Notes under the pieces: generated by a model
The model's input: the letters and a program-made list of their open reading frames with translations, nothing else
Told to the model about the DNA's origin: nothing
Databases searched by the model: none
Position numbers and translations under genes: made by a program
In this document: piece after piece, positions 27,166 to 36,325 of the stretch
Position numbering within the stretch: the stretch's first letter is position 1
Layout: each line of letters starts with the position of its first letter
Assembly: GCA_013153605.1 (NCBI GenBank)
Contig: JAADED010000084.1
Coordinates: 1-38,858, forward strand
DNA: 38,858 nt
Source of the DNA: Chlorobiota bacterium
GTDB taxonomy: Bacteria > Bacteroidota > Bacteroidia > Flavobacteriales > Flavobacteriaceae
Direction: 5' to 3'

Positions 27166-28392
27166 ATGGGGTTTGAATATCCGTACGCCCGGGGCGTGGC
27201 GCATTTGAAATCTTCCGACATTCGCGATTTGATGAAATACGCCATCGACCCCCGCTACATATCTTTTGCGGGAGGCATGCCCAACAACCGGCTGTTTCCG
27301 GTGGACGAAGTGGAAGAAATCTACCGCCGCCTTCCGCGCAAGGAAAAAGAGACCGCTTTTCAATACGGCCCCACCACGGGCTATCCGCCCCTTCGGGAGG
27401 CGGTGAAGGAATATATGGCCTCCAAGGGAATACCCGCGGATTCGCACGACGTGATGATTACTACCGGGTCGCTTCAAGGCATCTACATCGTATCGCAATT
27501 ATTTTTGGATCCGGGCGATACCGTATTGGCCGAAAATCCCACCTTCATCGGCGCCCTCACTTTGTTCAAAAGCTTTCAGGCCCGCACGGCGGGCGTACCC
27601 ATGGATGAACACGGGATCCTTCCCGAACGGTTGGAAAAGGCTTTCGAACGACATCCGGAGGCTAAATTTCTCTACGTGATTCCCAACTTTCACAATCCCG
27701 CCGGGCTGATCTACTCACCCAGACGCCGCCGGTATTTGCTGGATTTTATTCGAAAGAATAAATTGGTCTTGCTCGAAGACGACGCCTATAACGAGCTGTA
27801 TTTCGACGAAGCCGACCGCCCCCTCACCCGGCCGGTGTTGAGCATGGCCGATCCCGACACTGCCCGCCAAATCATTTATGCGGGTACTTTTTCCAAAATT
27901 TTCGGTCCCGGATTCCGGTTGGGATGGTTGGTATTGCCCCGGGAGGTATTTCCCAAAGCCGAGATTGTCAAACAAAGCTTGGACGCTTGCAGTCCCAACT
28001 TCTCCCAGGTGATTGCCAACACCTTCATGCGCGAAGGATACATGAAAGCCTATCTGGAACGCATACGCCCCGAATACCGGTTGCGCCGCGATCTGATCCT
28101 CCAAGCCATGGAAAAACACTTCCCGCCCGGGGTGCGCTACGTGCGGCCCAAAGGGGGATTTTACGTATGGGTGGAACTCCCCGACGGCGTACCGGCCGCC
28201 CGGGTGCTGGATTATGCATTGGAAAACGGCGTGGTGTTCGTATTGGGCAAAAGTTTCGCCCCCGACGACAGCCTGACCTCCGCCTTCAGGCTGGCATACT
28301 CGAATGTGGATCCGGAACAAATCGAGCCGGGCATACGCGTGATCGGCGAAGGCATCCGTCGCGCCATGGCTCGAGCTCAGAATCCCGGATAA
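27166..28392 (+). CDS. PLP-dependent aminotransferase (LysN / 2-aminoadipate aminotransferase-like)
   Basis: A 408-residue fold-type I class I/II aminotransferase without the GntR domain of MocR proteins. The PLP lysine is K244 in GTFSKIFGPGFRLGW. Other markers are ISFAGGMPNNRLFP, YGPTTGYPPLREAVKEYM, TTGSLQGIYIVSQLFLDPGD, IPNFHNPAGLIYS (Asn contacts PLP), and the C-terminal FRLAYSNVDPEQIEPGIRVI. It resembles LysN/ARO8-like enzymes that accept 2-aminoadipate, aromatic or branched amino acids; the substrate is not decided by sequence. An ordinary start (ATG 27166) is used. The 82-nt gap from the RemB-like gene has no clear promoter. It overlaps the convergent peptidase gene by 16 nt at its end. 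Confidence 0.9.
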   Translation: MGFEYPYARGVAHLKSSDIRDLMKYAIDPRYISFAGGMPNNRLFPVDEVEEIYRRLPRKEKETAFQYGPTTGYPPLREAVKEYMASKGIPADSHDVMITTGSLQGIYIVSQLFLDPGDTVLAENPTFIGALTLFKSFQARTAGVPMDEHGILPERLEKAFERHPEAKFLYVIPNFHNPAGLIYSPRRRRYLLDFIRKNKLVLLEDDAYNELYFDEADRPLTRPVLSMADPDTARQIIYAGTFSKIFGPGFRLGWLVLPREVFPKAEIVKQSLDACSPNFSQVIANTFMREGYMKAYLERIRPEYRLRRDLILQAMEKHFPPGVRYVRPKGGFYVWVELPDGVPAARVLDYALENGVVFVLGKSFAPDDSLTSAFRLAYSNVDPEQIEPGIRVIGEGIRRAMARAQNPG

Positions 28393-31300
28393 AAATTAAG
28401 CCCGAACGACCAGCGGTCGTACCCTTTGAGCGAGAGGGGACGGCTGATGTAAGGCTGGACGATCAGTTGGCCGAACAAATTGATGCGCCACGAAAAACCG
28501 GTCGAAGCCCACAGCCGGCGTTCGCCGGGAGCGGGATCGGTGGAGAGGCTGAGCTTGTCGCCCGGATTCCATACCCAACCGGCATCCACAAACCAGTTGA
28601 GGTCCGAAAACAGGAAGGACGATTTGATTAAAGCCAACCGCTCTGGCCCCGTAAAAGGCAAGCGCACCTCGAAATTGCCCACCAAAACCTTGTTCCCCAT
28701 CAAATCATTGAGCGAAAGGTCGGTATGGGTGGTTTGCACGTAGCGGGCCAACACGTCGAACGAATATCCGCGAATGAAATATTCATAGGTAATGAAGAAG
28801 GGATAAATGATGTTGTTTTCGTTCAAATGCTTGCCGAACCGGTTGATGTGCATTACGCGCCAAGCGAAAGTCAAAGGTTTGACATATTTGTAATAGCGAA
28901 AATCCGCCGAGGCGGTATTGAAATTGGCCTCTCCGAAGTAGCGCTGATATCCCAGGCGGTAGCGCATCCCCTTCATGGGAGCGGTCATTCCGAAAATGCT
29001 GTTGTCCCCCACTAAGGCGGTATTGGCTTCGCCCAAATTGAAGCCCGGGAAGGTGCCTTCCTTGCGGCGCTCGAAATACACGGGTTGCGGATATACGTAA
29101 CCGCTTACGGGATCGTAAGGGTAGAAATAGTTATAGCTGTCCACGCGGAAAGAATACCGTGCGAACGATCCGCCCGCTTCCAAACGCAGGGTGCGCGAGA
29201 AGGGGAACAGGCGGAACGCTCCTATTTTATCCTCGAACATGCGGATGAGGAAATAGCGGTACACCAAGTAATAATTTCCGTCCACCACTGCGGGCACCAC
29301 GTCTTGCATATAGCTGGGATACGGAATATGGGACACGTAAATGCCCATTTGCCGTTTTTTGCCCTGATTGAAATACATGGCCATGGCCGCGAAGTCATAA
29401 ATCTCGCCGTTAAGCGATACGGCGGCCGAGATCATGTTTTTGCCCAAAATGTCGCTGAAAATCATGTTCACCCCGCCTTGGAGGCCGGTGCCGTAAATGG
29501 AGGTGGTCATACCGAAGCCCATACTGCTGATATAGTCCAATTTGAATTTGGGCTTGTATTTTTTCTCCACGATTTGCGGTTGCACCGTATCCAGCGGCAT
29601 GAGGATGAGCGCGTCCACCAATCCGTATTTGGGCAACTTGCGGCGGGCCAACAATTCCATGGCTTTTTGCACATTGACGGGCGGGGGAAGCAAAGCGGCC
29701 TCCTTATGCACGTCTTGCCCGTTGACGGGGATGTCGTACAAATCCCGCGGGTGTACCGAATAGATGGCGTATTCGTGATTATTGAAATGGTTGTAAATGA
29801 TTTCGCCGTTGCGGGGATTGACTGTAATGGCGGGAGAAAATTTGGTGATGCCCGAAATGCCCGTAAAGAACTTGGTTTTCTGGTACACTTTGCCGGTGGC
29901 CGGTTCGTAGCGGTAGAGGTCGCGGAATCCTTCGCGGTCGGAGAGGAAATAAATGTTTCGACCCTCCCGATCGTACACGGGATTTAAATTATCCGCACCC
30001 GGAAAAATGCCGGGATAACTTTTTCGACCCGTTTCCAAATCCAAAATTCCCAAATGATAATGCACGGGATACTTATCGTGCTTGAGGTAATAATAATCGG
30101 TGGAAAACACGATTTTTTTACCGTCGGGACTCCAGGAGGGGGTCATCTCGGCATACCAATCATTGGTCAGCCGGGTTACTTCCTTGGTGTCGATGTGGTA
30201 GAGATAAAGGTCGGTATAGCCGTCTTCCTGACCCAACAGAAGGATGGTTTTGCCGTCGGGCGACCATTGGGGGTTTGAAAACGAATCCAGTCCTTTCACT
30301 TTCCAGGTTTTGACCACCTTGCGTTTTTGGACGTCCACCACCGCCAATTGGTTTTTGCCCTTTTTGAAAATTACGAACACGAAATATTTTCCGTCCGGCG
30401 ACCAGGTGCCCGCGCTCTCGTAGGCATCGATGGCGTCGATATGGGTGGCCATGGTGCGGGAAGCGATGATTTTGGTTTTTCCCGTTTCCAAATCGGCCAG
30501 GTAAAGGTCGAGGCTGATTACCTGTTTTTCCGAGAGGAAAATCATCTTGGTGCCGTCGGGCGAGATGGAAGGCGAAATATTGACGGCTCCGGCGTTTTTC
30601 TTATTAAACAATACTTTGCCCTTGGCCACCGTGTCTCGTCCGGCCAAAAACCGGCGGTAATAGGTTTCGTTGGCCGTTTTCCAGCGGCGAAAGAAGGTAT
30701 CGATTTTGATTCCGTACAGGCTGTCGAATGCGCGCTCGGGTCCTTGGCGGAGGGTGGCGTCATACATGCGCTCGATTTGGTCGTCGCCGTAAGTGGCCCC
30801 GAAGAAGGCCCAGAAATTTTGTCCGTAGCGGTAAGGAAAATATTTGGGTTTGTACATGTCTTTGTGACGGGCGGGAAAAAAGCCGTTGAGCACCGCATCG
30901 CGCATCCACATGGCGGTATGGGCGTCTTTGCGGCCCAAAGACATATATTCGGCCATGCCTTCCACCATCCACAAGGGCACGTTGGACAAATGTTGAAACG
31001 ACAAAAAAGCGCTTTCTTTCACATGGGTGTATTGGAAAGCGTGCACCAGCTCGTGGCCCAACACGTGGCGCGTTTGCCCGTAAGAAGGACGAAGGGGCAT
31101 GACCACCCGGGTTTTGAGGGCTTCGGTCACCCCGCCCGTACCCACGCCTATGGAGCCCATAATGGCCGTGGTTTGTTGGAAATCGGCGTGGTTGTTATAG
31201 AGAATAATGGGAATTTTCGAAGTGAAATGCGTCTCCCGAAATACCAGGCTGTGTTTGGCGAACCATTCCTCGGCATCGGTGAGGAATTTGGTACGCACCA

Positions 31301-31454
31301 TGTCGTTTTTCAAATAGGAATATAATTCGAAGTGCGGCGATTCGTACACTTTGAAATCGAAATCCTTGTAAATGGGCTTGTTTTGCCCGAACCACTCCTG
31401 GGCTTGCATCTGCCAGGCGGCGGCAATCGTCAGCATCCAAATCATTCTTTTCAT
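28377..31454 (-). CDS. Outer-membrane protein with metallopeptidase, TolB-like propeller and C-terminal barrel domains
   Basis: A 1025-residue exported protein (signal peptide MKRMIWMLTIAAAWQMQAQ). The N-terminal part holds a gluzincin-like zinc site: GHELVHAFQY (about residue 131) and a following E in WMVEGMAEYMS (about 165), as in peptidase MA-like proteins. The middle has at least four TolB/PD40 blades with SPDG signatures (SPDGTKMIFLS, SPDGKYFVFV, SPDGKTILLL, SPDGKKIVFS). The final 400 residues are strand-rich and end in the aromatic GLNFYPGF, as in outer-membrane beta-barrels. It could be a surface peptidase held in the outer membrane by its own barrel. Activity is inferred from the HExxH motif only. 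It follows the Omp28-like gene by 11 nt. Confidence 0.85.
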   Translation of the reverse strand: MKRMIWMLTIAAAWQMQAQEWFGQNKPIYKDFDFKVYESPHFELYSYLKNDMVRTKFLTDAEEWFAKHSLVFRETHFTSKIPIILYNNHADFQQTTAIMGSIGVGTGGVTEALKTRVVMPLRPSYGQTRHVLGHELVHAFQYTHVKESAFLSFQHLSNVPLWMVEGMAEYMSLGRKDAHTAMWMRDAVLNGFFPARHKDMYKPKYFPYRYGQNFWAFFGATYGDDQIERMYDATLRQGPERAFDSLYGIKIDTFFRRWKTANETYYRRFLAGRDTVAKGKVLFNKKNAGAVNISPSISPDGTKMIFLSEKQVISLDLYLADLETGKTKIIASRTMATHIDAIDAYESAGTWSPDGKYFVFVIFKKGKNQLAVVDVQKRKVVKTWKVKGLDSFSNPQWSPDGKTILLLGQEDGYTDLYLYHIDTKEVTRLTNDWYAEMTPSWSPDGKKIVFSTDYYYLKHDKYPVHYHLGILDLETGRKSYPGIFPGADNLNPVYDREGRNIYFLSDREGFRDLYRYEPATGKVYQKTKFFTGISGITKFSPAITVNPRNGEIIYNHFNNHEYAIYSVHPRDLYDIPVNGQDVHKEAALLPPPVNVQKAMELLARRKLPKYGLVDALILMPLDTVQPQIVEKKYKPKFKLDYISSMGFGMTTSIYGTGLQGGVNMIFSDILGKNMISAAVSLNGEIYDFAAMAMYFNQGKKRQMGIYVSHIPYPSYMQDVVPAVVDGNYYLVYRYFLIRMFEDKIGAFRLFPFSRTLRLEAGGSFARYSFRVDSYNYFYPYDPVSGYVYPQPVYFERRKEGTFPGFNLGEANTALVGDNSIFGMTAPMKGMRYRLGYQRYFGEANFNTASADFRYYKYVKPLTFAWRVMHINRFGKHLNENNIIYPFFITYEYFIRGYSFDVLARYVQTTHTDLSLNDLMGNKVLVGNFEVRLPFTGPERLALIKSSFLFSDLNWFVDAGWVWNPGDKLSLSTDPAPGERRLWASTGFSWRINLFGQLIVQPYISRPLSLKGYDRWSFGLNFYPGF

Positions 31455-31465
31455 GGGCGTAAATT

Positions 31466-32503
31466 TTAATAATCGGTCCGGGTATTGACGGGAGCTTGTT
31501 TCACGTTAACCACCCGCGGCTTTTCTTCGCCTTTAACCAACATGGCCGTAAATTCGGCTTGCGCGGGGTCGCTCACTTCCGGCGGCATGGGGCCGCTGTA
31601 GTGCCAAGTGTATTCGTTGTCGAACACGCATTGTTCCGAAGGAATCGGATCCCCCAAAAGGGCGGTGAAAGCGTGTCGCAATACATGATTGTGCTCGAAA
31701 TCGGGAATGGGATTTTGACCGCCGTAATAATCGGTGGCATTGGCCTGGTCGGCCAGGAGGCCGTTTTCCGAAGCGTAAACCACCAGTTTATACCCCTCTC
31801 GGGTCAAATCCATATCGAAACGCACCTTCACGGTCAAATCCAGGAGGGCCCCGTCATAGGAAGAAGCGATTCGGAGACCGGCGGGGCGCACGCTGTCCAA
31901 ATATTGCCGGGCGTGGGATTCTTCTTCGTTCCATATTTCGTTCCGGTTGATCAAGGGGGTGGGATAGCCCGTAATGCCGTAAACCGAAGCCAGTTCTTCG
32001 ACTCCTTCGAAATGAAAGGGGTCGGTTTGGTTGCCCCGGTTATGGATGGCCAGGGAAAATACCCGCGGCTCGCGGGCGGTGAGTTGCTCGAGCTTGTAAT
32101 GCACCCGCGGACAATTCACGCACCAGGTACCCGTAAAATCTTCGATAATCACGTAAGTGGGATGCCGCGGATCGATGACCGAGGCCCGAATGCTGTCGGC
32201 CGCTTCTTTTTCGTAGCCTCCTCCCAAATCCCATTTGGCGGTGATCACATAATCGCCCGGCGAATCGAACACATGGACATTGCCTTCGACAGCTTGCCCG
32301 TTCACGTAAAAAGTCACGTTGGCCGTAATATCGTTTCCTCCCGCATCTCGGGCATAAAAAGGAATTTCGTACCGCGTGATGTAGTGGGTCCCGTAGGGAG
32401 AATAAATGGTAAAGGAAAGCGATTCGGGATCGATGCCCCGTTCTTCCTTATTGCAACCTACGAAGAGGAGTAAAATTCCGATAAAAAACCACTTTTTTTT
32501 CAT
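31466..32503 (-). CDS. Omp28-like lipoprotein with thioredoxin fold
   Basis: A 345-residue exported lipoprotein (MKKKWFFIGILLLFVGC, lipidated C17). After an Ig-like region comes a thioredoxin-like domain with the redox pair C128-C131 in FTGTWCVNCPRVHYK and a cis-Pro motif GYPTPLIN. This fits the Omp28 family first described as a 28-kDa outer-membrane protein of Porphyromonas. A redox role in the envelope is plausible from CxxC but is not proved. It probably shares transcription with the peptidase-barrel gene 11 nt downstream and with the DUF4197 gene 44 nt upstream. Confidence 0.88.
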   Translation of the reverse strand: MKKKWFFIGILLLFVGCNKEERGIDPESLSFTIYSPYGTHYITRYEIPFYARDAGGNDITANVTFYVNGQAVEGNVHVFDSPGDYVITAKWDLGGGYEKEAADSIRASVIDPRHPTYVIIEDFTGTWCVNCPRVHYKLEQLTAREPRVFSLAIHNRGNQTDPFHFEGVEELASVYGITGYPTPLINRNEIWNEEESHARQYLDSVRPAGLRIASSYDGALLDLTVKVRFDMDLTREGYKLVVYASENGLLADQANATDYYGGQNPIPDFEHNHVLRHAFTALLGDPIPSEQCVFDNEYTWHYSGPMPPEVSDPAQAEFTAMLVKGEEKPRVVNVKQAPVNTRTDY

Positions 32504-32547: not shown

Positions 32548-33258
32548 TCAGCGTTTATCCTGGAGGGCGAACACCCGCCGGAGCAAGTCGGTGGTGCGGG
32601 CGTTAATATCGGTGCGAATGCGGACTTCTTCGTCGGCGATTTTTTTATACACCCCTTCCAACGCTTTCCGCGTTACGTAATCGTTCAAATCGGTATTGAC
32701 CGGTTCCACGAAAGGGATTCGATTATAACGGGTGATAATTTCCGTCCACACCCTGTCGGCCCCCACCCGGGCGAAGGATTGTTGTACCACGGGATAAAAC
32801 CGGATGTAAAGCTCCTCCCGGGTTTTTCGTTCCAAATATTCGGTGGCCGCCGTTTGCCCGCCCATCAGGATGCGTCGCGCATCGTCGAAAGTGATTTCCT
32901 TGACCGCCTGCACGAACACGGGCTTGGCTTCTTTCACCGCCTCTTCGGCCGCGCGGTTGAGCATGCGAATACCTTCGTCGGCCAAACTCGAAAGCCCCAT
33001 TTTTCGGAGGGTTTGATCCACCTTTTGCAATTCGGGCGGCAAGAGGATGCGGACATCGGGTTGGTTGTAAAAACCTCCTTCTTTCATCAACGAAGTAACC
33101 TGGCGCTCGATTCCTTCGTGCAAAGCTTGGCGCAAGGCGGCCGCTATATCGGCATTGCCGGGTTGGCCCGTGCCGGGGATATTTCGGAGAACATCCTCCA
33201 TTTCGCCGCACGAGCTCATCAAGAGCATCAGCCATCCCAGCCATAATATTTTTCTCAT
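32548..33258 (-). CDS. DUF4197 lipoprotein
   Basis: A 236-residue protein of DUF4197 (PF13852), whose function is unknown. It has a lipoprotein signal (MRKILWLGWLMLLMSSC, C17), then the family blocks ALRQALHEGIERQVTSLMK, YNQPDVRILLPPELQKVDQT, LNRAAEEAVKEAKPVF, and FDDARRILMGGQTAATEYL. The protein is mostly helical. The neighbours are envelope proteins on the same strand, so an outer-membrane or periplasmic place is likely. The 105-nt gap before it (33259-33363) holds only an imperfect GGGAAAG/CTTCCC hairpin. Confidence 0.9.
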   Translation of the reverse strand: MRKILWLGWLMLLMSSCGEMEDVLRNIPGTGQPGNADIAAALRQALHEGIERQVTSLMKEGGFYNQPDVRILLPPELQKVDQTLRKMGLSSLADEGIRMLNRAAEEAVKEAKPVFVQAVKEITFDDARRILMGGQTAATEYLERKTREELYIRFYPVVQQSFARVGADRVWTEIITRYNRIPFVEPVNTDLNDYVTRKALEGVYKKIADEEVRIRTDINARTTDLLRRVFALQDKR

Positions 33259-33363: not shown

Positions 33364-34941
33364 TCAGAAATTATACCGCACCGTGAAGGTGTAACGGTTC
33401 ATGACCGATGTAACGTCGTAGGTTTGGGTCAAACCCACGGGGAACAATTGCTGGGTGTAGCGGGTTTGGGAATGCAACATGGACAGGTCCAGCTCGACGT
33501 TGCCGAAATCATAACCGAGACCGAAGCTGTATCCGCCGGTGACATGATCGGGATAGCGGCGATAGGGAGAAGTCAGGTAAAACACGCCCGCTCTCAAGGC
33601 CCATTCCTGCATGCGCAGCTCGCCGCCGGCGCGCCACCGGTGTTGGGCGGTATAGACGGATGCAATTTCTTCGTTGAGCAAATCGAAGTAAGACTGGGAA
33701 AGGCCGTCGGCTCCGAGAGCCGAAAAACGGGTCATCGCCCAGTTCCGATAGGTATAATCCACCGAAACAAAACCGGTCTTGTCGTGAATATAAGCCGCTC
33801 CCGCTTGCCAATGTCCGGGTTCGAGGTAGCGGTATTCTTCGAAGATATTGTCCACCCCCGGATAGAGCTCGAACACGTTGAGCTCCGAAGTGTCGCCGTC
33901 TCCGTCCAGGTCGTCGCGGTCCATAGCTTCCGAATACAATCCTTCGCGTGTGGTTTCCTGCAATTTCCACCAGGTGGGGCTCACGTAAGCCACCGAAATG
34001 CGCACTCGGGGAACGGGTTTGTAAATCAATCCGGCCTTGAAAGCCAATCCCTCCCCTTCGGTATGGAGGCGGGTTTCGTATTCCACGTATTGAAGGGTGG
34101 ACCCGGGATCGTATCCTTCTTCGGCAAAGAGTTTATAATCGTCGTAATTCATGGTGCGAATGGAGAGGCTGAGACCCAAGGCCAGCTTCCGGTCATATTC
34201 GCCCGACACGAAAAAGTCATGGGTGAATTTTTTGCCGTCCATGCGGCGTTTGAGCGTATGGTATAAGGGATTGGAATAAGCGGCATTGCTCACGTACTCG
34301 CTACAAAGGCTGTCGCCGCATGCGGGGTCGATGAGGTAGCCCTGGTAGGCCAGAAATGCCTGTTGGGCGTAATTGCCATAGGCTTCGCCCAAATATTGAT
34401 ATACGCTTTCGAGGGTTTCGTTGTCGTAGATCCGCAATTCGCTCACTGGCACGCCTTCGGCTTGATAAACGAAATAGTCGGTAACCGATTGCATGGCCGC
34501 GCTTTGCCCTTGCATTTCGATGGAATTAAGGTAGTGCATGTCGGCGCGACCGGTAATGCCGAAGGTTACTTTGTGCCATTTGCGGGTATCGGACACAAAG
34601 GGAATGGCCACGCCCCATTGGTTGGTATAAAAAGGACGTTGAAAAATACTTGCGGTGCCCGAATATTCGGGATTTTGATTGTAAATGGCCGTGTTCGACA
34701 CATTGAATCCTCCCGGCGACCAGGAGATGCGATTGGCCACGAAATATGCTCCCGCCGCGGGGTTGTCGGCCACCGCCGAAAGGTCGGCACCGATGTTGGA
34801 AATGGTTCCCGCCGTGGCGGTGTAGCGGGCCGTCCCGTTCAGCCGGGAGGCATTATAGTGATAGACGTCGTCCGTAGTTTGGGCGAAGAGCCGTAAACCG
34901 CCCCCCAGGACGAGGAGCATGACACCGATGATCTTTTTCAT
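33364..34941 (-). CDS. OmpP1/FadL/TodX-family outer-membrane transporter
   Basis: A 525-residue beta-barrel protein. The signal peptide from the ATG at 34941 is MKKIIGVMLLVLGGGLRLFAQ; a TTG at 34962 would add seven residues. The family hallmark near the mature N-terminus is visible (ARYTATAGTISNIGADLSAV then ADNPAAGAYFV, comparable to the Asn-Pro-Ala motif of FadL hatch regions), and the end is strand-rich with MNRYTFTVRYNF. FadL proteins take up hydrophobic compounds such as fatty acids; the substrate here is unknown. The gene follows the lipoprotein gene by 30 nt. Confidence 0.86.
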   Translation of the reverse strand: MKKIIGVMLLVLGGGLRLFAQTTDDVYHYNASRLNGTARYTATAGTISNIGADLSAVADNPAAGAYFVANRISWSPGGFNVSNTAIYNQNPEYSGTASIFQRPFYTNQWGVAIPFVSDTRKWHKVTFGITGRADMHYLNSIEMQGQSAAMQSVTDYFVYQAEGVPVSELRIYDNETLESVYQYLGEAYGNYAQQAFLAYQGYLIDPACGDSLCSEYVSNAAYSNPLYHTLKRRMDGKKFTHDFFVSGEYDRKLALGLSLSIRTMNYDDYKLFAEEGYDPGSTLQYVEYETRLHTEGEGLAFKAGLIYKPVPRVRISVAYVSPTWWKLQETTREGLYSEAMDRDDLDGDGDTSELNVFELYPGVDNIFEEYRYLEPGHWQAGAAYIHDKTGFVSVDYTYRNWAMTRFSALGADGLSQSYFDLLNEEIASVYTAQHRWRAGGELRMQEWALRAGVFYLTSPYRRYPDHVTGGYSFGLGYDFGNVELDLSMLHSQTRYTQQLFPVGLTQTYDVTSVMNRYTFTVRYNF

Positions 34942-34971
34942 GTGCGATTTGTTTTGATTCAAAGCGGAAAA

Positions 34972-36282
34972 TTAACGACGGCGTCCCACCGAATGTCCTC
35001 CGCCCGAGCGGCCGCGCGAAATGCCCGCGCTCCGGGTGGAAGGGCTGTGGGAGCGACCTCCCGAAATCGAGCGCGTATAGCCGTGATGTACCGACGGACG
35101 ATAAGTTTCGATCCGATCGGGAGAGGCGTGACGGGTCGCACCTACGGGCATTCGGTTTACTGCCTCCGACGAGCGGGTACGGGTACGTGTATGTACGCGC
35201 GTATGCGTGCGGGTACGCGTGTGCGTGCGGGGACGTACGCTACGATATTCCGACGGATTGCGGTAGCGGCGAACCGGTACGGCGGATGCGCCTTGACGTG
35301 CCGGCCTCACGGTGCGGGTGGACGGCGTATGGCGGCCGGAACCGTTCCCTTGGCGCGAAGGAAGGGCGCGCGTGCGGGTACGGCCGTCCAAAGTGCGGCC
35401 CACGGAACGCACGGCACCCCTCGTTTGACGGGTTTGTCGAACCGTGGGCGCTTGACGCGGCCTACGGTCACGAAGCGAACGCGTGGAAGCGGGCGTGCGC
35501 GTACCTTGACGGCGAATTTGCCGGTCGTGCAATCCGCGCAAACCCCGGCCCGTGGAGCGCAACGTGCGTAACGTGTTCAAATGGGCCACATGCATGATGC
35601 GCGATCCGCCCTGCGTGCGGTGGCGGGTAACTTTGCCCCGCGGACCCCGCACGGTGGCCGCCGCTCCTCCGTAATAATTGTTGACCACCCCGTTGTTCAC
35701 GTAATAGGTGCCGTCGTTATAATAGTAGTAGTAAGGATAGCCTACGTAATAATACGGATAACCGACGTAATAATAAGGATAGCCCACATAATATCCCGTC
35801 CACCACGGATCGTACCAGGGATCGTAATACCATCCCCATCCGGGTCCGTAGTAATAGGAAATGTACACATAAGCATGGGGATGATACCGCCAATACCAGC
35901 GGGGACGATACCAATACCAGAAATTATCGTAATGCACGTACACGTGTACGTCGGTATCTCCGTCGCTTTCTACCAATTCGTCGGGATCGGTAGTGATATA
36001 ATAATTATTATAGGTATTATATTGGACCACATTACCGCCCGTTACCGTATCGCCTCGGGATTGTTCCGCTTCGGAAGCGGCGTAGGACGTTTCCTCTTCG
36101 CGGTCAAATACGTATTTGCGAACGGTTTTGGCTTTGGTGCGGGGTTGCACCACTTCGGCATAATATTCCCGGTCGGTATAATAAACGCCGTCATCGGCGG
36201 AGACGTTTCGGTAGCTTTCGCAGGATTGGAACATCCAACCCGAAGCAAGAAGGAAGAGCAAAGCGCGTAAGGTATTTTTCAT
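34972..36282 (-). CDS. Low-complexity lipoprotein, Tyr/Trp-rich centre and Arg/Thr-rich C-terminus
   Basis: A 436-residue protein I cannot assign to a known function; similar Bacteroidota proteins have sometimes been labelled vitellogenin-like for composition only. From the ATG at 36282 it has a lipoprotein-like signal (LLFLLASGWMFQSC, C21; weak lipobox). The centre is very rich in Tyr, Trp and Pro (YWYRPRWYWRYHPHAYVY) with three copies of GYPYYYV. The last 200 residues carry very many Arg, Thr and Ser (for example RTHTRTRTHTRVHTRTRTR) and hardly any acidic residues, so this part is strongly basic. It may bind a polyanion such as LPS, nucleic acid or acidic polysaccharide, as an inference. 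A FadL-like gene follows it. Confidence 0.75.
   Translation of the reverse strand: MKNTLRALLFLLASGWMFQSCESYRNVSADDGVYYTDREYYAEVVQPRTKAKTVRKYVFDREEETSYAASEAEQSRGDTVTGGNVVQYNTYNNYYITTDPDELVESDGDTDVHVYVHYDNFWYWYRPRWYWRYHPHAYVYISYYYGPGWGWYYDPWYDPWWTGYYVGYPYYYVGYPYYYVGYPYYYYYNDGTYYVNNGVVNNYYGGAAATVRGPRGKVTRHRTQGGSRIMHVAHLNTLRTLRSTGRGLRGLHDRQIRRQGTRTPASTRSLRDRRPRQAPTVRQTRQTRGAVRSVGRTLDGRTRTRALPSRQGNGSGRHTPSTRTVRPARQGASAVPVRRYRNPSEYRSVRPRTHTRTRTHTRVHTRTRTRSSEAVNRMPVGATRHASPDRIETYRPSVHHGYTRSISGGRSHSPSTRSAGISRGRSGGGHSVGRRR
35720..35800 (-). repeat. 21-bp in-frame tandem repeat coding GYPYYYV
   Basis: About three adjoining copies of a 21-bp unit encode GYPYYYV GYPYYYV GYPYYY in the lipoprotein. Third-position differences separate the copies (for example TAC/TAT), so the repeat has diverged at DNA level while the peptide is kept. 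Confidence 0.7.
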
Positions 36283-36293
36283 GGCGGTATGTT

Positions 36294-36325
36294 TTTGCAA
36301 GTCCGGCAATTAATGATTAGATTTG
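36294..36325 (+). promoter_or_regulatory. Promoter of proS
   Basis: TTTG (36294-36297), 20 nt, then TAGATTTG (36318-36325), a full match to the Bacteroidota consensus. It gives a leader of about 43 nt before the ATG at 36375. It lies between proS and the divergent lipoprotein gene. Confidence 0.75.

Follow-up and report, generated by a model that had tools for sequence, protein, structure and literature searches.

We found that the 38,858-nt stretch of DNA analysed here (the window) encodes a single chain in which a predicted gluzincin-type peptidase domain is followed by a TolB-like β-propeller and an Omp85-type outer-membrane barrel. We put a probability of about 0.6 on this chain being a WD40-Omp85-type outer-membrane protein with a gluzincin zinc peptidase at the periplasmic face, the peptidase serving to trim or remove proteins of the envelope; most likely, the chain's own Omp85 barrel tethers a peptidase that faces the periplasm and has a role in envelope maintenance. 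The domains, the predicted folds, the conservation of the active site, the wide spread of the family and one clade that has lost the catalytic residues were all computed and are given below.

Domain architecture and predicted structure

The gene and the features of its product are as follows.

28377..31454, minus strand: coding sequence of the peptidase, TolB-like propeller and Omp85-type barrel protein, 1025 aa (ATG at 31454, TGA at 28377)
31398..31454, minus strand: probable Sec signal peptide lacking a lipobox, residues 1 to about 19 (sequence read by eye)
30624..31397, minus strand: gluzincin-type peptidase domain, residues 20-277 (PF04450, AlphaFold2, M9 collagenase fold match)
31041..31055, minus strand: HELVH, residues 134-138, predicted catalytic and zinc-binding motif (conservation)
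30945..30962, minus strand: EGMAEY, residues 165-170, with E165 the presumed third zinc ligand (conservation)
29745..30623, minus strand: TolB-like β-propeller, about residues 278-570 (PD40, 6.4e-27; TolB fold match)
29544..29744, minus strand: linker with two short helices, residues 571-637 approximately (AlphaFold2 model)
28380..29543, minus strand: 16-stranded Omp85-type outer-membrane barrel, residues 638-1025 (AlphaFold2; BamA fold match; PF01103 weak)
28764..28775, minus strand: IRGY, residues 894-897, within the long loop (874-921) that joins strand 11 to strand 12 (AlphaFold2, alignment)
28578..28592, minus strand: FVDAG, residues 955-959, conserved, in strand 13 (alignment)

The sequence features named in the original prediction were recovered. 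The N-terminus resembles a Sec-type signal peptide when read by eye; HELVH with its downstream Glu in EGMAEY is present and conserved; the several SPDG blades correspond to four SPDG motifs (at 298, 352, 398 and 442), PD40 repeats and a fold predicted to be TolB-like; and the strand-rich C-terminus has 16 modelled strands within residues 638-1023, with Phe as its last residue. We take IRGY to be the RGF/Y motif of Omp85 loop 6, and the letters of FVDAG also occur in another Omp85 protein of the window genome.

The full chain was modelled with AlphaFold2 on a 65-sequence alignment; the 65-row alignments omit 16 of the 80 named loci described below (the fragment L097 and 15 thinned by judgement). 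The model has a mean pLDDT of 86.2 and a pTM of 0.78, with pLDDT <50 at residues 12-23, 90-107 (peptidase domain), 311-313 and 334-344. We found that propeller residues 277-549 align to TolB (4pwz; Z 24.4, 2.3 Å, 238 residues) and barrel residues 641-1025 to the E. coli BamA barrel (7nre; Z 22.1, 4.6 Å, 302 residues). The top barrel match is F. johnsoniae BamA (9n2d; Z 22.6, 3.7 Å, 311 residues, a few of them beyond the barrel), and BamA, TamA and Sam50 chains match at Z 20.6-22.6 over 280-311 residues. Full-chain modelling, which had been proposed beforehand as a check, predicts a BamA-like barrel at the C-terminus, and the three-part, self-anchored architecture is backed, as a prediction, by sequence families and two AlphaFold2 models.

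Sequence profiles gave the following. PF01103 (Omp85) scored 20.9 bits against the window protein (cut-off 24; E 2.8e-4 at residues 829-991), 23.3 bits in the genome-wide search, and 24 bits, equal to the cut-off, with neighbours in frame; it was matched at E 0.001 by 4 of 45 family members. Three proteins of the window genome match Omp85, namely the window protein and two others that we take by eye to be BamA and a TamL-like protein. The barrel profile matched neither the presumed BamA (probability 0.4) nor the second other Omp85 protein (probability 7.3) significantly, each being a weak test against a single-sequence template. Judged by sequence only, the tie to Omp85 is weak. Among the Pfam matches of the window protein up to E 1 there was no POTRA domain, with a propeller and short helical linker instead, and no M48 peptidase family. 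The threshold of the TolB equivalog TIGR02800 was missed (115.6 versus 343.15 bits).

The peptidase domain

PF04450 (BSP) scored 25.1 bits against the window protein, over its cut-off of 23.8, and was matched at E 0.001 by 24 of 45 family members, with all three clades (below) represented; Peptidase_MA_2 matched at 1.6e-4, under its Pfam cut-off. The alignment profile of the N-terminal domain found no meaningful match among solved structures; hence, the assignment as a peptidase rests on Pfam, the motif and the fold. HExxH arises in 442 of 20000 shuffles of this domain, so a lone HExxH might be chance, and its conservation argues against chance.

Modelled alone with AlphaFold2 (pLDDT 83.5), the N-terminal domain aligned to Grimontia collagenase (8jt1, M9; 3.5 Å, 227 of 258 residues) at Z 16.2, a value only modestly above the best Z of 14 that is typical of helical models without a clear match. 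It also aligned to lugdulysin (M30; Z 16.1, 4.7 Å, 232 residues) and to M1 aminopeptidases (Z up to 13.0), and all 14 Foldseek matches at E <= 0.001 were M9 collagenases. Given these M9, M30 and M1 matches, the domain most likely has a gluzincin fold, as modelled, although it is mostly helical and middling Z values are common for such models. In gluzincins, the Glu ligand lies in the next helix but one after the HExxH helix. In the model, HExxH sits in a long helix (125-147) and E165 lies two helices on (161-173). At this level of prediction, neither of the two outcomes named beforehand as refuting the idea was seen. The domain shares HExxH, a downstream Glu and, if the model is right, the gluzincin fold with the BSP/Peptidase MA superfamily (PF04450, PF13485) and the M9/M30 folds, and it differs in being fused to a propeller and a barrel; it is 10-14% identical to the top-matching M9 and M30 structures.

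Conservation and spread of the family

From named genomes we retained the best 80 of at least 575 stretches encoding a relative. These loci were found with the patterns KYFPYRYG and MWMRDA rather than with HExxH; HE[LMI]VH was required afterwards by script, and none of the 80 was lost. We found H134, E135, H138, E165 and E169 to be identical in 81 of 81 aligned rows (the window plus the best 80 of at least 575). Named relatives in this same best-80 set include Pedobacter, Mucilaginibacter, Olivibacter, Cesiribacter, Saprospiraceae and Bacteroidales records.

At E <= 1e-30, a family profile built from 15 rows had a match in 252 of the 395 genomes sampled across the phylum (as delimited in the genome collection used), and the weakest best match among these 252 was 1.3e-72. 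An 80-genome search that included the window's own genome found relatives with 68-77% identity in all 8 other genomes of the same genus and, in 12 genomes from other families of the order, frames of 1075-1145 aa with 19-24% identity within residues 8-473. Within the window's own family, the chain is rare: the active-type N-terminal domain was found in only 4 of 199 genomes, the window genome counted. No encoded relative was found among viral contigs. The view that each part exists only on its own has been overtaken: fusions of a propeller with an Omp85 barrel were published in 2014 (PMC4104836), and the whole chain is widespread.

A relative of 633 aa, too short for a barrel, is encoded on the Salinibacter ruber plasmid pSR116 (L211:5920-7821) with 40% identity over residues 16-562 and with TlpA- and DsbD-type genes downstream. 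Its record annotates it as 'basic secretory protein-like'; hence, annotation pipelines can detect the peptidase domain.

Loss of the catalytic residues in one clade

A second sample of 40 loci was hand-picked from the 395-genome profile matches, usually with one or two loci for each family code; the clade frequencies below are therefore not estimates for the phylum. Six of 107 rows (L047, L048, L051, L083, L084 and L085; near-copies or cut-off loci) were removed by judgement before the tree and motif counts, and the remaining 101 rows were placed on an unrooted tree of the propeller and barrel only (residues 278-1025), built by a quick search with one support type. Clade I, the window type, has 50 rows, 15 of them from other classes and the remainder from the window's class; clade II has 20 rows, all outside that class; clade III has 31 rows, all within it.

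We found that the presence or absence of HExxH is one change on this tree (support 100). HExxH, E165 and E169 are universal in clades I and II (70 of 70 rows). In clade III, H134, E135 and H138 are all absent from 31 of 31 rows and E165 and E169 remain in 7 and 3, respectively, while W162 and G166 are retained in all 31. In clades I-II, the barrel RG motif aligns in 69 of 70 rows and its strict form [VILMF]RG[FY] occurs in 63 of 70; in clade III, the corresponding counts are 31 of 31 and 30 of 31. FxDxG is found in 69 of 70 rows of the former and 31 of 31 of the latter. The label 'active' is HExxH itself; the independent results are the co-retention of E165 and E169 and the fit to a tree made without the N-terminal domain. 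Outside the 107 rows, the 1129-aa relative L039 resembles clade III in lacking HExxH and carrying MRGF. A tree of the N-terminal domain only separates clades I and III (100 and 99) and does not place clade II on one branch, as expected if clade III came from clade II-like forms.

Judged from these sequences, clade III is a pseudopeptidase paralogue. The class content of each clade suggests the order of events, which would be one early duplication and a later, single loss of catalysis in the second copy, within the window's class. Clade III retains the architecture without the catalytic residues; hence, proteolysis is not the sole reason for keeping this chain.

The chain might instead be mainly an assembly or scaffold factor resembling a fusion of BamA and BamB, in which the peptidase fold mainly binds clients and catalysis is an extra that clade III lost. 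The 31 clade III rows that lack HExxH and keep W162, G166 and the barrel RG motif speak for this, as do the Omp85 proteins studied prior to PlpD, which as described in PMC11116518 all serve assembly or transport, and a likeness to a BamA-BamB fusion was proposed for WD40-Omp85 as early as 2014 (PMC4104836). However, a pure scaffold has no need of the active-site residues present in all 70 clade I-II rows, and we consider this account unlikely beside that of a tethered peptidase.

Proposed placement of the peptidase at the outer membrane

A barrel that delivers the peptidase to the cell surface, in the manner of an autotransporter, would suit the secreted peptidases, such as collagenases, that are among the closest solved folds. 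To our knowledge, the N-terminal domains of studied Omp85 proteins are in general periplasmic, which argues against such delivery. The PlpD barrel was believed before 2024 to export its enzyme domain, yet direct experiment showed that this N-terminal domain stays periplasmic, as are the POTRA domains of studied Omp85 proteins (PMC11116518), and we regard surface delivery as very improbable. Since Omp85 barrels put preceding domains in the periplasm, as in the PlpD experiment (PMC11116518), the peptidase of the window protein is expected on the periplasmic side. With a barrel in the membrane and a propeller between, it would be anchored to the outer membrane on its inner side.

We infer a peptidase that would be active on the periplasmic side, with envelope proteins as its substrate and envelope maintenance as its role. 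The barrel would anchor the chain in the outer membrane; on the periplasmic side, the propeller would stand in for the POTRA domains and may, as had been suggested, present substrate, and the peptidase would lie on its far side; and the peptidase, held under the outer membrane at a spacing set by the propeller, could trim or remove envelope proteins while tethered. PlpD (patatin-Omp85) likewise joins an Omp85 barrel to an enzyme domain on its N-terminal side, but its domain is patatin-like (lipase-type) and is accompanied by POTRA, whereas the window protein has a peptidase and a propeller without POTRA.

BepA with BamA and BamB presents a similar set of parts, with a periplasmic zinc peptidase beside an Omp85 barrel and with BamB as the propeller, but these are separate proteins, BepA belongs to M48 and has TPRs, and the resemblance is in work only. 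BepA acts on LptD, which it promotes or degrades, probably at the BAM complex (PMC8423444). The window protein may work as BepA does at BamA, yet a single polypeptide would supply the anchor, the adaptor and the enzyme.

Gene neighbourhoods

Two genes precede the peptidase gene on its strand.

31466..32503, minus strand: Omp28-family thioredoxin-like lipoprotein with CVNC and a lipobox-like start (PF11551, E 1.1e-21), 11 nt upstream of the peptidase gene
32548..33258, minus strand: DUF4197 protein (PF13852, 8e-75), next gene upstream of the Omp28 gene

The window also holds an outer-membrane-protein-like ORF (33364-34962, minus strand), for which Pfam gave nothing up to E 1 and NCBIfam a weak match to BamG (E 0.0054), and a lipoprotein-like ORF of unusual composition (34972-36309, minus strand), in which YVGYPYYY repeats are followed by an Arg/Thr/Ser-rich tail. 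On the plus strand (27166-28392) lies an aminotransferase gene, whose product resembles the C-terminal domain of MocR regulators but lacks their DNA-binding region; the gene is convergent with the peptidase gene, and their 3' ends overlap by 16 nt.

The neighbour 11 nt upstream had been called a thioredoxin-like lipoprotein, which agrees with its Omp28 family, lipobox-like start and CVNC; a thioredoxin profile matched it at 0.062 only. The two genes had been proposed to work jointly, and they could form a unit that matures exported proteins, given the 11-nt gap, a gene order shared by the genus and three close-kin loci, and a CxxC retained in 9 of 9 clustered Omp28 neighbours. We ran the search for co-occurrence across Bacteroidota that had been suggested and found the pairing in the window's genus and close kin only: Omp28 adjoins upstream in the window and 10 distinct loci, all from the genus or the three close-kin loci, which amounts to 9 of the 80 named loci (best 80 of at least 575) and 0 of the 40 second-sample loci. 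The close loci L092 and L097 have other genes at this position, and the window genome has a further Omp28 gene at another site. The window protein contains 0 cysteines, and 7 of 10 Omp28-paired rows are Cys-free beyond residue 25, as are 47 of 81 clade I rows (the window and the best 80 of at least 575) beyond residue 20. Hence, with the pairing limited to the genus and close kin and the window protein free of Cys, a direct redox partnership is unlikely. The proposed joint work has weak support, and we give the two-gene unit hardly any credence; Omp28 as a general partner was dropped.

PBP1A, a class A PBP, is the adjacent upstream gene, in the same orientation, at 35 of the 36 Sphingobacteriaceae loci and at 37 of the 80 named loci overall (both among the best 80 of at least 575); PBP1A was called by Pfam on one locus (PF00912 and PF00905) and by profile on the others. 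PBP1A lies 2.2 kb upstream in L148, and none was found in the available surrounding DNA of the other 42 named loci of this best-80 set. Among 19 second-sample clade I loci, PBP2 is divergent upstream in 9, each of another family code (as the next gene in 7 and with one intervening ORF in 2), RodA is upstream on the opposite strand in 9, and one or both are present in 10, an arrangement checked by Pfam on one locus. No PBP2 was found at E 1e-15 within six genes of the window gene or of the 80 named loci, and no peptidoglycan synthase is among the nearest neighbours of the window gene.

The two arrangements with wall synthases are unrelated to each other and, short of proof, hint at a functional tie. 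The protein might be a partner of peptidoglycan synthases that couples wall growth to the outer membrane, by regulating PBP1A or PBP2 or by cutting a wall-associated substrate. This would account for the PBP1A and PBP2-RodA arrangements, but they are confined to two lineages, are missing from the 42 other named loci and from the surroundings of the window gene noted above, and in the PBP2-RodA case involve divergent genes that may work separately; we rate such a partnership as distinctly unlikely. In E. coli, outer-membrane activators of PBPs fill the role of tying outer-membrane and wall growth. A broader scenario, equally speculative and given little weight here, is an ancient Bacteroidota factor in which an Omp85-borne peptidase duplicated early, one copy became a pseudopeptidase in the window's class, and the active copy, with PBP1A and PBP2-RodA, ties the growth of the outer membrane to that of the wall.

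In clade II, RNase R is directly upstream in 7 of 20 loci, with TamB beyond it in 3 (4 by BLAST clustering); in L169, L185 and L194, the genes for TamB, RNase R and the peptidase-propeller-Omp85 protein are consecutive on one strand. In these classes, the clade II product may serve TamB as an Omp85 partner distinct from TamL; the RNase R neighbour suggested no function. No neighbour common to all lineages was found when gene neighbourhoods were compared.

Relation to known proteins and significance

The 2014 survey labels PF00149 a metalloprotease; we take PF00149 to be the calcineurin-like phosphoesterase family, so the survey's 'Metallo' Omp85 group, which is defined by it, is probably not made up of proteases. 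This 'metalloprotease-Omp85' group of PMC4104836 is separate from the WD40-Omp85 group of the same survey (Heinz and Lithgow 2014), in which a propeller closest to TolB is N-terminal to an Omp85 barrel in a non-POTRA architecture. The window protein shares with that subfamily a TolB-like propeller N-terminal to an Omp85 barrel; it differs in its peptidase domain, which goes unmentioned in the main text of PMC4104836, where no word starts with 'peptidase'. We found no paper joining a peptidase domain to a propeller-Omp85 protein in a literature search that was thin on subscription papers and preprints. Hence, the propeller-Omp85 class is already known, and its peptidase domain is without a mention that we found in print. 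In 2024, the WD40-like Omp85 subfamily was still described as poorly characterised (PMC11116518).

Outer-membrane assembly in Bacteroidota relies on unusual machinery (PMC12611786, PMC12578637), and the window family is a further widespread envelope protein of this phylum, with no job assigned to it in the literature we found. Residue E135 is the one to mutate, and clades I and II versus clade III offer a natural comparison of catalytic and scaffold forms. A gluzincin domain in members of WD40-Omp85 would give a concrete first hypothesis for their work.
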